Shown: positions 21,212 through 29,141 of the stretch, piece after piece
How positions within the stretch are numbered: position 1 is the stretch's first letter
How the letters are laid out: each line of letters begins with the position of its first letter
Assembly (NCBI GenBank): GCA_021414105.1
Contig: JAIOPB010000007.1
Location: 1 to 56,749 of the forward strand
DNA length: 56,749 nt
Reading direction: 5' to 3'
Source: Nitrosarchaeum sp.
Lineage (GTDB): Archaea > Thermoproteota > Nitrososphaeria > Nitrososphaerales > Nitrosopumilaceae
The notes under the pieces: generated by a model
Databases searched by the model: none
What the model was told of the DNA's origin: nothing
Seen by the model: the letters and a program-made list of their open reading frames with translations, nothing else
Translations under genes and position numbers: made by a program

Positions 21212-21309
21212 GCCGGGGTCGCCTAGCCTGGTAGGGCGCGCGCCTGGAAATAATTTACCATAAAGCGCGTTCTCGCAAGGGAACGGGAGTTCAAATCTCC
21301 CTCCCGGCG
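21212..21309 (+). tRNA. tRNA-Ser (GGA) with a 14-nt intron
   Basis: Acceptor stem GCCGGGG (21212-21218) pairs with TCCCGGC (21302-21308), discriminator G at 21309, no encoded CCA. D arm 21221-21237; anticodon stem CGCGC (21239-21243) with GCGCG (21265-21269); loop CTGGAAA with anticodon GGA at 21246-21248. Fourteen bases (about 21251-21264, one-base placement ambiguity) interrupt the loop at the canonical 37/38 site. Class II variable arm (GTTC pairing GAAC) and T arm GGGAG-TTCAAAT-CTCCC confirm a serine tRNA. Confidence 0.93.
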
Positions 21310-23567: not shown

Positions 23568-23580
23568 TTAACATTGTTAA
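23568..23580. promoter_or_regulatory. 13-bp palindrome TTAACA-W-TGTTAA, copy 1
   Basis: TTAACATTGTTAA ends 35 bases before the ATG at 23616, immediately upstream of a TATA-like TTAATA at about 23589. A position next to the BRE/TATA suits an activator or repressor operator. The same word recurs at 24522 and 24727. Confidence 0.6.
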
Positions 23581-23615: not shown

Positions 23616-24062
23616 ATGGATAATTCAACCCATCTGATTTCAGAAAAGATTGAAACGATTGAAAATGACAATAAAGATCGAGAAATTTCCATATGCGAAA
23701 TAATGAAAAACAATACATCAAATATAATCCAAAAACTAGAAGTAGAAATTCCCATTATTTTTCAAAATTATTCAGATCTATATTCCCGATATCTTCACTC
23801 AATACAAGATCTGTTTGGAGTTTGCCATTTGGCGGAAAAGCAATATTTTGACAAGATGCATGTTGATCAAAAGGTCTTGAAATCCTTTGATGAGTATTGG
23901 AAATTCATGACAAATATTGCTGAATCACAAATTGATTTATCTACAGATTTTCTAAAATCTTATGTCCAGTTTAGATTATCCCTTATTGATTCTTGGGATG
24001 AATACGCTCACGCTACAATGAACACATATGCCAAAATGCTATCTCGATTTATTCAAAAATAA
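23616..24062 (+). CDS. Hypothetical helical protein under palindrome control
   Basis: 148 residues, mostly helical by pattern, acidic N-terminus and aromatic-rich middle (IIFQNYSDLYSRYLHSI, then ESQIDLSTDFLKSYVQFRLSLIDSWDEY). No signal peptide or membrane helix. Not recognised; the layout of two helices with many aromatic residues resembles phasin-like or bacterioferritin-like bundles only loosely and I do not assign it. The 13-bp palindrome sits 35 bases upstream. Confidence 0.7.
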   Translation: MDNSTHLISEKIETIENDNKDREISICEIMKNNTSNIIQKLEVEIPIIFQNYSDLYSRYLHSIQDLFGVCHLAEKQYFDKMHVDQKVLKSFDEYWKFMTNIAESQIDLSTDFLKSYVQFRLSLIDSWDEYAHATMNTYAKMLSRFIQK

Positions 24063-24095: not shown

Positions 24096-24263
24096 TTATC
24101 TGGTCTTTCTTAGGATAACCTGCATTAGCACTTCTTTTGTATATTCGATTCCATGTTCCTCATCAGTATGCTTGCCAAATTGAGATATTACAGAATCAAC
24201 TTCTCCATAAGCTACAAAATCACACTCAAAACCATAATCACTGCAACAAAGTTTTATCACCAT
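24096..24263 (-). CDS. DUF1059-type small protein
   Basis: 55-residue protein beginning MVIKLCCSDYGFECDF and containing GEVDSVISQFGKH and a DEEHGIEYTKE segment. This is the pattern of the DUF1059 family (small proteins with a Cys pair, GFxCDF and a late H-x-I), widespread in archaea and bacteria with unknown role. It is followed on the - strand by nothing within 30 bases and lies 40 bases downstream of the zinc-finger gene, possibly on the same transcript. Confidence 0.75.
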   Translation of the reverse strand: MVIKLCCSDYGFECDFVAYGEVDSVISQFGKHTDEEHGIEYTKEVLMQVILRKTR

Positions 24264-24303: not shown

Positions 24304-24486
24304 CTAGTGCTCTTTTTCACGTTTCGGTTTTGAGTGAGCTTTAATCATATGCTTCTTTGTTCTTTCTGCATCCGTAAATTCCATTTTACAAATATTACAT
24401 TTATTTGTAAATTGAGGATTTTTTCTAAATACATTTTTCAAACTAGGCACACCTATTTTCTTTGAAATTCGTATTTTTGATTCCAT
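24304..24486 (-). CDS. Small C2H2 zinc-finger protein
   Basis: 60 residues with a single C2H2 finger: CNIC, twelve residues, then H-x4-H (KKHMIKAH), flanked by basic segments at both ends (N-terminal SKIRISKKIG, C-terminal SKPKREKEH). Archaeal proteins of this type are presumed nucleic-acid or protein binders. The 13-bp palindrome at 24522 lies 35 bases before its ATG, with a TTTTAATATG TATA-like element between. Confidence 0.8.
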   Translation of the reverse strand: MESKIRISKKIGVPSLKNVFRKNPQFTNKCNICKMEFTDAERTKKHMIKAHSKPKREKEH

Positions 24487-24521
24487 GCCATATCAAAAAA
24501 TTATTCATATTAAAACATCAC

Positions 24522-24534
24522 TTAACAATGTTAA
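24522..24534. promoter_or_regulatory. 13-bp palindrome TTAACA-W-TGTTAA, copy 2
   Basis: TTAACAATGTTAA lies 35 bases before the zinc-finger gene start (- strand) and also opens the left arm of the inverted repeat 24522-24739 on the + side, so it could serve both directions. Confidence 0.6.
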
Positions 24535-24726
24535 CTCGAATTTGATATCGTGAATTTGTTTAATACAAAATATGCAGAAGCATATCTGGGAAAAACATTA
24601 TCTGTGTCTTGGGCAGTAAATGAAAACTAGATGATTTCCGATTCATAAATTCTGTAGTTTTTCCTTGGAGTAGATATGTTTGCTTCTGCACGTTTTGTAT
24701 TTTTAATTTTAGTATTTAGGGTATGC

Positions 24727-24739
24727 TTAACATTGTTAA
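24727..24739. promoter_or_regulatory. 13-bp palindrome TTAACA-W-TGTTAA, copy 3
   Basis: TTAACATTGTTAA closes the right end of the inverted repeat. On the - strand a GTG (24691) lies 35 bases away, opening a 43-codon frame; on the + strand no gene of note follows before 24918. Confidence 0.55.
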
Positions 24740-26477: not shown

Positions 26478-26822
26478 GTGTCATTAAAAAAAACCATGAC
26501 TGGAAAAAATTATCGAGATAAAATTTACATTATAAAAGATATAATCAGTCTTCTTACTGAATATGGCCAGCTAAATCAAACAACACTTATCAGCTATAGT
26601 GGCCTAAATCTAAAAAAACATAAACACATTCTTGATACTTTAGAATCACGAGGATTCATCTCAAAATTAATTTCAGAAAATGACAAGCGTCCAGTTACAA
26701 TTTATAAAGCCACAAATAAAGGAGTTGAGTTTTGTCAAACAATAATAGCACCATATGAAGAATTATTTCCTAGAAAATCTAACTCAAATCCAACTAACTT
26801 AGGACTCTTGCTCTTCATCTAG
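26478..26822 (+). CDS. Winged-helix DNA-binding protein (HTH_45-like)
   Basis: 114 residues. The first 90 match the archaeal small winged-helix pattern: ISLLTEYGQLNQTTLISYSGLN, then LDTLESRGFISKLI and a wing with TIYKATNKGVEFC. This group is abundant in thaumarchaeota. GTG start at 26478; ATG seven codons later is an alternative. Its end overlaps tail-to-tail with the following - strand gene by 24 bases. Confidence 0.78.
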   Translation: MSLKKTMTGKNYRDKIYIIKDIISLLTEYGQLNQTTLISYSGLNLKKHKHILDTLESRGFISKLISENDKRPVTIYKATNKGVEFCQTIIAPYEELFPRKSNSNPTNLGLLLFI

Positions 26823-27222: not shown

Positions 27223-27702
27223 TCATTTTACTATAAAAGTTCCGCTCATTTCAGGATGTAATGTACAATGAAACGTAAATTCACCTGTCTTGTCGGCAAT
27301 AAATGTAATTGATTGAGATTCAAAATAACTCAAGTCTTTTGTGTGGACATTAAATTCATTCATATTCAAATTATGTTTCTGGTTATCTTGGTTGATCATA
27401 TGAAAAGAAATCAGCTCACCACGACTTACTGAGACTATTGGTTTTTGACTTGGTGTGAAACTATTTTTTCCACCTTTTGTTGAAGATAATGCAAATATAG
27501 GACCGTGTTGTGTTGGTATTGATTTTACATAAAAGTTTGCTGGCGCTCCAAATACAGGCGATGTTGCATTTACAGGAATCATGGAATTAACAATATAATA
27601 TCCACCAACTGAACAAAGCACAACAATACCTGTGATTGTAAGTATTGTATTTCTTCCTAATTTAGTTTGGTGTTTTTGTTTTACCAATTGATTGCATGAC
27701 AT
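27223..27702 (-). CDS. Membrane-anchored cupredoxin (plastocyanin-like)
   Basis: 159 residues: basic N-terminus, membrane helix about 20-40 and a cupredoxin domain (about 55-159). The type 1 copper ligands are visible: His in KHNLN and the C-terminal FHCTLHPEMSG with Cys, His and Met. Such proteins carry electrons at the cell surface; ammonia-oxidising thaumarchaeota use many of them in place of cytochrome c. Partner enzymes cannot be read from context. Confidence 0.9.
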   Translation of the reverse strand: MSCNQLVKQKHQTKLGRNTILTITGIVVLCSVGGYYIVNSMIPVNATSPVFGAPANFYVKSIPTQHGPIFALSSTKGGKNSFTPSQKPIVSVSRGELISFHMINQDNQKHNLNMNEFNVHTKDLSYFESQSITFIADKTGEFTFHCTLHPEMSGTFIVK

Positions 27703-27905
27703 TTGCCGCTATTTAGACGATGATGAACAAAGTTAAGTATATTATAAAAACAAAAAAATCAAAAGCTCATTGAGTACAAATGCATCACAATTTATTGTAT
27801 CAAAATATCTATCAATTCTGTAATTTCAAAAAACATGGAAAAATTATACCTAATTCTTTTATAATTGAACTATGAGAAAAAACAATTAATATCAAAATAC
27901 ATTAT

Positions 27906-29141
27906 GTGATAAAAATGACTAACACACAAAAACTTCTAATCGGAGCCATAATAATTCTTGGAATACTTGTGGCAATAACTCTTCCACCATCTATGGAATT
28001 TTATTTTGAAAAGAAAAATCAGCTAGATACAAATGAAATAGTAGGTCTCAAAGACATAACTCCAGAGAGCAAAACTGATGAAATAATAAAGGAAATTCCA
28101 CCAAATGACAATTCTCAATATGAACAAAGTAATACAAATCTAGGTATAATTTATCAAAACTCGGAAAATTCCGTTGTACAAATAACCAGTACTGTCATAG
28201 AGACTAGATCAAATATCATCATCAATGGCAATCCATTAGAGCAGCAGTCATCTAGGCTAGGCTCCGGATTTGTGTATGATAGTGAAGGTCATGTTATTAC
28301 AAACAATCATGTTGTTTCAGGCGTATCTAATGTTGATGTTACTTTATCAAACGGTGACACTTTTAATGCCAAAGTAATTGGTACTGATGAATTCAATGAT
28401 ATTGCAGTATTGCAAATAACTGATGATTATTCTAATGAACCAATAAATCCAATATCTTTTGCTGATTCATCTCAAGTTCATGTCGGTGATCAAGTGATTG
28501 CCATTGGAAATCCATTTGGACTAAGCAATACTATGACAACAGGTATAGTAAGTCAAATTGGAAGACTGCTTCCAAATAAGGATCTTGGGTTTTCTATTCC
28601 AAATATCATCCAAACTGATGCTGCAATTAATCCCGGAAATTCAGGAGGACCTCTTTTGGATAACAGTGGAAATTTAATTGGAATGAATACCGCAATTGAA
28701 TCTAAAGTAGGAGAGTTTGCAGGTGTTGGTTTTGCTGTTCCATCAAATACCATTAAAAAAGTTGTACCAGCATTAATTGAAAAAGGAAAATATGATCATC
28801 CCTGGTTAGGAATCTCTGGAACTACTCTCTCACCAAAATTAGCAGAAAAATTGAATCTACCGCAGAATTTTAGAGGTGCTCTAATTAATGGTGTTGTAAA
28901 AGATGGACCTGCAGATAAGGCCGGAATCAAAGATGCATTGTATACTGCAGACAGAGAAATAGCAAGTGCAGATATAGTAATTTCAATTGATAATACACCA
29001 GTTAAAAGAATAGATGACATTATTGCATATGTATCAGAAAATAAATCCGTGGGAGACAATGTTTCTCTTCAGGTCTATAGAGATGGCAATGTAGTTGATA
29101 TTGACATTGAGCTTGGTAAACGAACAATAAATAGTGAATAG
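27906..29141 (+). CDS. HtrA/DegP-like serine protease with PDZ domain
   Basis: 411 residues: N-terminal signal anchor (about 6-28), linker, trypsin-like domain (about 75-290) with His in ITNNHVVSG, Asp in DEFNDIAVLQI and Ser in NPGNSGGPLLD, then one PDZ domain (about 295-405). Acts in the extracytoplasmic space on misfolded proteins. GTG at 27906 or ATG at 27915 may start it. The 203 bases before it, shared with the divergent cupredoxin gene, hold only A/T-rich promoter-like sequence. Confidence 0.93.
   Translation: MIKMTNTQKLLIGAIIILGILVAITLPPSMEFYFEKKNQLDTNEIVGLKDITPESKTDEIIKEIPPNDNSQYEQSNTNLGIIYQNSENSVVQITSTVIETRSNIIINGNPLEQQSSRLGSGFVYDSEGHVITNNHVVSGVSNVDVTLSNGDTFNAKVIGTDEFNDIAVLQITDDYSNEPINPISFADSSQVHVGDQVIAIGNPFGLSNTMTTGIVSQIGRLLPNKDLGFSIPNIIQTDAAINPGNSGGPLLDNSGNLIGMNTAIESKVGEFAGVGFAVPSNTIKKVVPALIEKGKYDHPWLGISGTTLSPKLAEKLNLPQNFRGALINGVVKDGPADKAGIKDALYTADREIASADIVISIDNTPVKRIDDIIAYVSENKSVGDNVSLQVYRDGNVVDIDIELGKRTINSE

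Follow-up and report, generated by a model that had tools for sequence, protein, structure and literature searches.

A predicted stand-alone structured RNA shares a putative operator with protein genes in ammonia-oxidising archaea

Introduction

Bacterial stress responses include small RNAs that are controlled by a regulon, for example under Fur, SigmaE, or OxyR. The locus described here resembles these systems in that a stand-alone gene for a short structured RNA shares its control site with the protein genes of a regulon and carries conserved unpaired stretches. However, we found no relation in sequence or structure to the bacterial RNAs; the promoter here is of the archaeal TATA type, and no Rfam family matches the RNA. 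A second point of comparison is offered by the intergenic small RNAs of archaea, which are likewise structured and presumed to act in trans, but among these no described relative was found, and the RNA studied here belongs to a co-inherited module with a defined operator.

Two further classes share features of layout with the locus. Archaeal H/ACA guide RNAs also consist of a stem, a one-sided unpaired stretch, and a second stem, although they differ from our RNA on several counts: there is no Rfam match, the first helix (P1) is longer than usual for that class, the unpaired internal strand is not variable but conserved, and a kink-turn with an ANA box is not evident by eye. Miniature inverted-repeat elements (MITEs) are short, intergenic, and bounded by terminal inverted repeats, as is this locus, whereas the RNA is usually present in a single copy, has a conserved promoter on one side, and contains an internal helix that covaries.

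Ammonia-oxidising archaea are among the most abundant cells in the ocean, and their regulation is poorly known. Our literature search found no paper on a trans-acting small RNA in these organisms, none on the RNA reported here, and none that mentions its operator word in a relevant organism. Based on the evidence presented below, we regard the RNA as a new, previously undescribed family of a generally known kind, the regulon-controlled small RNA.

Results

The window analyzed is a contig of 56,749 nucleotides from Nitrosarchaeum sp. A sequence-only reading of it had drawn attention to a long imperfect inverted repeat bounded by two palindromes, and both the repeat and its bounding palindromes proved to be real. 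The arms and their shared words were all found as listed, with one pair of segments at 24562–24582/24681–24701 (21 nt, 90% inverted match) and an outer pair at 24516–24534/24727–24745 (19 nt, 89% inverted match). When a 241-nt region was folded, the plus strand gave −59.2 kcal/mol against a shuffled mean of −42.0 (z = −4.06) and the minus strand −50.7 kcal/mol against −29.5 (z = −4.95), and the native fold was matched by 0 of 200 shuffles on the plus strand and 1 of 200 on the minus strand. The repeat is thus stable on either strand (z −4.1 and −5.0 when rounded), and the minus-strand core at 24571–24692 retains a z of −3.98 when folded alone. The palindromes at both ends are exact copies of TTAACAWTGTTAA. 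What did not hold was the idea of one symmetric element lying between them: the palindromes are operators that are symmetric in themselves, yet both of the promoters in question point along the minus strand and serve separate transcription units, so part of the symmetry seen at the outer ends is incidental. The hairpin of the RNA itself spans 24571–24692.

The word TTAACAWTGTTAA occurs three times in the 1,288,093-base genome, at 23568, 24522, and 24727, all inside 1.2 kb; the reversed control word is absent from the same genome, and about 0.4 copies per genome would be expected by chance (iid estimate). Each copy lies at the same distance from a predicted start. The first (TTAACAATGTTAA, 24727–24739, minus strand, an exact copy) is 35 nt upstream of the RNA start and precedes GTGCAGAAGC at 24691. 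The second (TTAACATTGTTAA, 24522–24534, minus strand) is 35 nt upstream of the start codon, at 24486, of an open reading frame encoding a zinc-finger protein, and the third (TTAACATTGTTAA, 23568–23580, plus strand) is 35 nt upstream of a 148-aa gene that starts at 23616. In the RNA promoter, a TAAATA box that reads as a TATA box lies at 24713–24718 on the minus strand, a position supported by the collected operator-start sites. Across 284 oriented exact sites, the gap between operator and open reading frame peaks at exactly 35 nt, with 53 starts compared to about 1–3 at most other gaps, and of 119 operator-start sites, 113 have a T, the first base of the TATA box, at offset 8 from the operator. 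In relatives, the 35-nt spacing recurs at the leaderless starts of zinc-finger, second zinc-finger, DUF1059, cupredoxin, and 148-aa genes. The same site is thus found at a fixed place before several genes and repeatedly across genomes, as in an operator-defined regulon.

A TATA box about 26 nt before the start, with the operator directly upstream of the TATA/BRE region, corresponds to the layout of a leaderless promoter. The position of the operator suggests an activator site. We interpret the two end palindromes as the putative operators of two successive minus-strand promoters; the earlier proposal that the ends may be regulator sites is supported by their fixed spacing to predicted starts across genomes. 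Within the genus of the window, genomes with the RNA have 2–8 operators, compared to 0–2 in genomes without it.

Homologues of the minus-strand unit were first identified by DNA similarity (72–88% identity in the longer matches) and share the operator, CTAAATAC, a fixed spacer, and then AUGCAGAAGCA...UGCUUCUGCAU. A covariance model (R1), built from 12 sequences that excluded the operator and the TATA box, was run on 250 genomes of the family. It matched 31 genomes, of which 29, belonging to three genera of Nitrosopumilaceae, were checked as true, which answers the question of conservation in relatives raised by the sequence-only reading; the matches in L093 (E = 0.0036), a false positive without an operator, and in G122 (E = 0.0067) were left out. 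The RNA of the window scores 132.6 and 102.8 bits against models R1 and R2, respectively. A search of 400 genomes of the order with a second covariance model found no further genera carrying the RNA, and Rfam contained no matching family even at E = 1. An operator lies 33–37 nt upstream of the RNA in all 29 genomes, nearly always with a TAAATA box; the spacing is 35–37 nt in every case but L077, where it is 33 nt and the box is weaker. A second copy in G222 that lay outside the model-building set also has an operator, at 36 nt. By comparison, the near-fixed distance of the operator in 29 of 29 genomes, together with the TAAATA-type box, points to a promoter of the RNA's own.

The predicted transcript is a structured noncoding RNA of about 122 nt (24571–24692, minus strand) that would start at about 24691/24692 and end at about 24571 or in the U-rich stretch just beyond. 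In a cultured Nitrosopumilus that carries the RNA, the primary 5′ end is predicted at the A of AUGCAGAAGC and the 3′ end just after GCUUCUGCAU. All of the following elements are on the minus strand. The 11-bp helix P1 is formed by a 5′ strand at 24681–24691 (GUGCAGAAGCA, or AUGCAGAAGCA in relatives), with 97.9% of cells paired and a nearly invariant sequence, and a 3′ strand at 24572–24582 (UGCUUCUGCAU), in which GCUUCUGCA is invariant in 31 of 31 sequences. The fold and the alignment both place a short helix P2, found mainly in the genus of the window, between UAUCU (24672–24676) and AGAUA (24583–24587). The unpaired bulge ACUCCAA (24665–24671) is conserved across the three genera and remains unpaired in the folds. 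Helix P3, which pairs GGAAAAAC (24657–24664) with GUUUUUCC (24589–24596), covaries, and among 31 sequences each of its 7 modelled pairs has changed on both sides. Beyond it, the column profile indicates a conserved apical stretch, UAGUUUUCAUUUACUGCCCAAGACAC (24604–24629), with no conserved helix inside; an extra apical helix that we considered was not conserved and was dropped. Outside the helices, conservation in the column profile is thus found in ACUCCAA and in the apical UAGUUUUCAUUUACUGCC..AGACAC.

In alignment A6, which was fitted to the covariance model and hence favours structure, 95.1% of cells are paired and 45 cells carry double changes, compared to 13.3 after shuffling; the covariation score is 0.212, against 0.035–0.108 for slid versions. 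A free prediction on A6 by RNAalifold returns P1 and P3, single-sequence folds from all three genera contain P1 and in most cases P3, and individual folds of 10 sequences gave z values from −2.1 to −5.6. Compensatory changes thus maintain P3, and covariation in relatives supports the predicted RNA as the long-hairpin transcript that had been suspected from the letters of one genome. In P1, compensatory changes are almost absent; the evidence for its pairing is complementarity, and the constraint on its sequence has another cause. Because this conservation exceeds what pairing needs, P1 may be recognized by a protein or another nucleic acid.

The transcript is assigned to the minus strand by promoter geometry, since on the plus-strand side the spacing is not fixed but ranges between 20 and 42 nt. 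A wobble-based strand test is weak (18 GU versus 11 AC/CA), and both flanks are T-rich, each in its own direction.

Together, these observations make it likely that the locus encodes a stand-alone structured small RNA, predicted on the minus strand at 24571–24692, that is co-regulated with protein genes. It is quite unlikely that the RNA serves the downstream gene as a 5′ leader or attenuator. Such a reading would account for the same-strand gene that lies within about 200 nt (ZF60 in the window's genus, DUF1059 in other genera); however, this gene is itself preceded by a separate operator and TATA box at the usual distances, the identity of the neighbour depends on the genus, and a U-rich sequence follows P1. 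Moreover, in G002 solo copies of the RNA, each with its own operator, lie between unrelated genes and have no such neighbour.

That the transcript is instead the leaderless mRNA of a micropeptide, with AUG CAG AAG (MQK...) at the 5′ end as its start, is very unlikely. The RNA does begin with AUG (GUG in the window) at the position of a leaderless start in the genes of the regulon, and 14–43 open codons follow in every homologue, but beyond MQK(Q/H) the frame of conserved nucleotides shifts (19/10/2, the frame of CTCC relative to ATG across homologues; 13/9/7). Single-base indels separate close relatives, including a 1-nt indel between the window and G004, peptide lengths scatter, and base pairs are kept where codons are not. 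The absence of a conserved reading frame is in keeping with a structured RNA.

The MITE-like element that had been proposed, or any other mobile DNA with terminal inverted repeats, is most improbable. Perfect terminal inverted repeats are present (TGCAGAAGC/GCTTCTGCA), and G002 and G222 each hold three copies of the RNA, but most genomes, including that of the window, hold one. A genome search thus found no set of dispersed copies bounded by inverted repeats. Homology between copies also extends, on one side, through the promoter and operator, so no element ends at the repeats, and the compensatory changes in P3 indicate selection at the RNA level. Least probable of all is a pair of inverted copies of one small gene, as had also been suggested, or transcription of the plus strand from the left operator: this operator does precede ATGCAGAAGC on the plus strand, but on that strand the gap ranges from 20 to 42 nt and no TATA box stands at a fixed place, solo copies keep only the minus-type promoter geometry, and the frames differ between close relatives. 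A viral link was also discarded: when viral contigs were scanned for the operator and TATA pattern, the three hits were put down to chance and lacked the RNA, and phage records gave weak chance matches only.

The protein genes of the putative regulon lie close by. ZF60 (24304–24486, minus strand) encodes a 60-aa C2H2 zinc-finger protein that is co-inherited with the RNA: using a full-length cut-off of at least 84 bits (the next group scores 64 bits), it was found in all 29 RNA genomes and in one other, G005, of the 250. The co-occurrence has a Fisher value of 4e-37, with genomes counted as independent of phylogeny. G005 has ZF60 and operators, and the RNA is absent at the corresponding locus. 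The 148-aa protein (23616–24062, plus strand), assigned to the same regulon, is all-helical (AlphaFold2 pLDDT 74), and in several genomes its gene is preceded by an operator at 35 nt. It gave no convincing match in Pfam, PDB, or Foldseek; its identity as a phasin, suspected from sequence, was unsupported by Pfam, PDB sequence, or Foldseek searches. The DUF1059 gene (24096–24263, minus strand) has no exact operator in the window; its relatives in other genomes carry one and, in other genera, lie directly downstream of the RNA. Elsewhere in the window, a tRNA-Ser(GGA) at 21212–21309 (plus strand) with a 14-nt intron in the anticodon loop was detected by Rfam and, once introns were allowed, by ARAGORN, whose default scan missed it.

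The best candidate for the regulator is a winged-helix (MarR/Sso10a-like) protein (26478–26822, plus strand), because in other genera its orthologues and ZF60 are arranged divergently around a common operator. The best orthologues occur in 28 of 29 RNA genomes, the exception, G017, being a fragmented assembly; a profile search against PDB returned one weak, odd match. Judged by synteny and gene content, this protein is most likely the regulator, and the signal is probably a stress.

Discussion

We propose that the RNA and the protein genes are under the common control of a DNA-binding protein, for which the linked winged-helix protein is the most likely candidate, through a regulator-type operator at about −48 to −36 that abuts the TATA box. 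The common operator precedes ZF60 and the 148-aa gene and, in relatives, DUF1059, cupredoxin, and other zinc-finger genes, and the regulon would probably be triggered by a stress. The RNA, predicted to begin at the position expected for a leaderless start codon, would be produced alongside the proteins of the regulon. Its 5′ and 3′ ends would be closed together by the invariant 11-bp P1, which, along with the following U-rich stretch, may protect and end the transcript. Two conserved motifs, the ACUCCAA bulge and the apical stretch UUUUCAUUUACUGCC, would be exposed, and through them the RNA may act in trans, either pairing with mRNAs that do not belong to the regulon or binding to a protein, for example ZF60.

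Two target searches looked for base-pairing. Duplexes between the interior of the RNA and six regulon mRNAs, in up to 18 genomes, did not exceed shuffled controls (mean z −0.6 to 0), and a search of the genome for sequence complementary to the apical stretch stayed at control level, with no conserved target. A match at the start codon of a 213-aa gene in G004 and G014 was rejected, as it is absent from the genome of the window. It is conceivable, though doubtful, that a thaumarchaeal stress circuit has this RNA as its effector, with P1 and the two motifs binding ZF60 or the winged-helix regulator and the resulting ribonucleoprotein controlling translation or feeding back on the operator; if true, this would be a ribonucleoprotein stress circuit without a bacterial counterpart. 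The RNA family, promoter, operator, and co-regulated genes arrive as a single package that can be tested in cultured Nitrosopumilus, at least one strain of which appears to carry the RNA, and would provide a rare, directly testable regulatory RNA of marine and groundwater ammonia-oxidising archaea.

Further operator-like sites were seen near other genes. In the window, a degenerate operator-like word, TGAACAAAGTTAA (27724–27736), lies upstream of a cupredoxin-like gene (27223–27702, minus strand) at a spacing that does not fit the 35-nt rule; likely relatives of this gene in other genera have an intact operator. An HtrA-like serine protease is encoded at 27906–29141 (plus strand), and in G014 (L042) the gene for a protein with a similar N terminus is preceded by an intact operator, at a distance of 53 nt instead of 35. 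In G183, a genome from the genus to which N. zosterae belongs, seven exact operators lie within 3.5 kb (L176, 4022–7532) and form a regulon island together with genes for the winged-helix, zinc-finger, and DUF1059 proteins and for the RNA.
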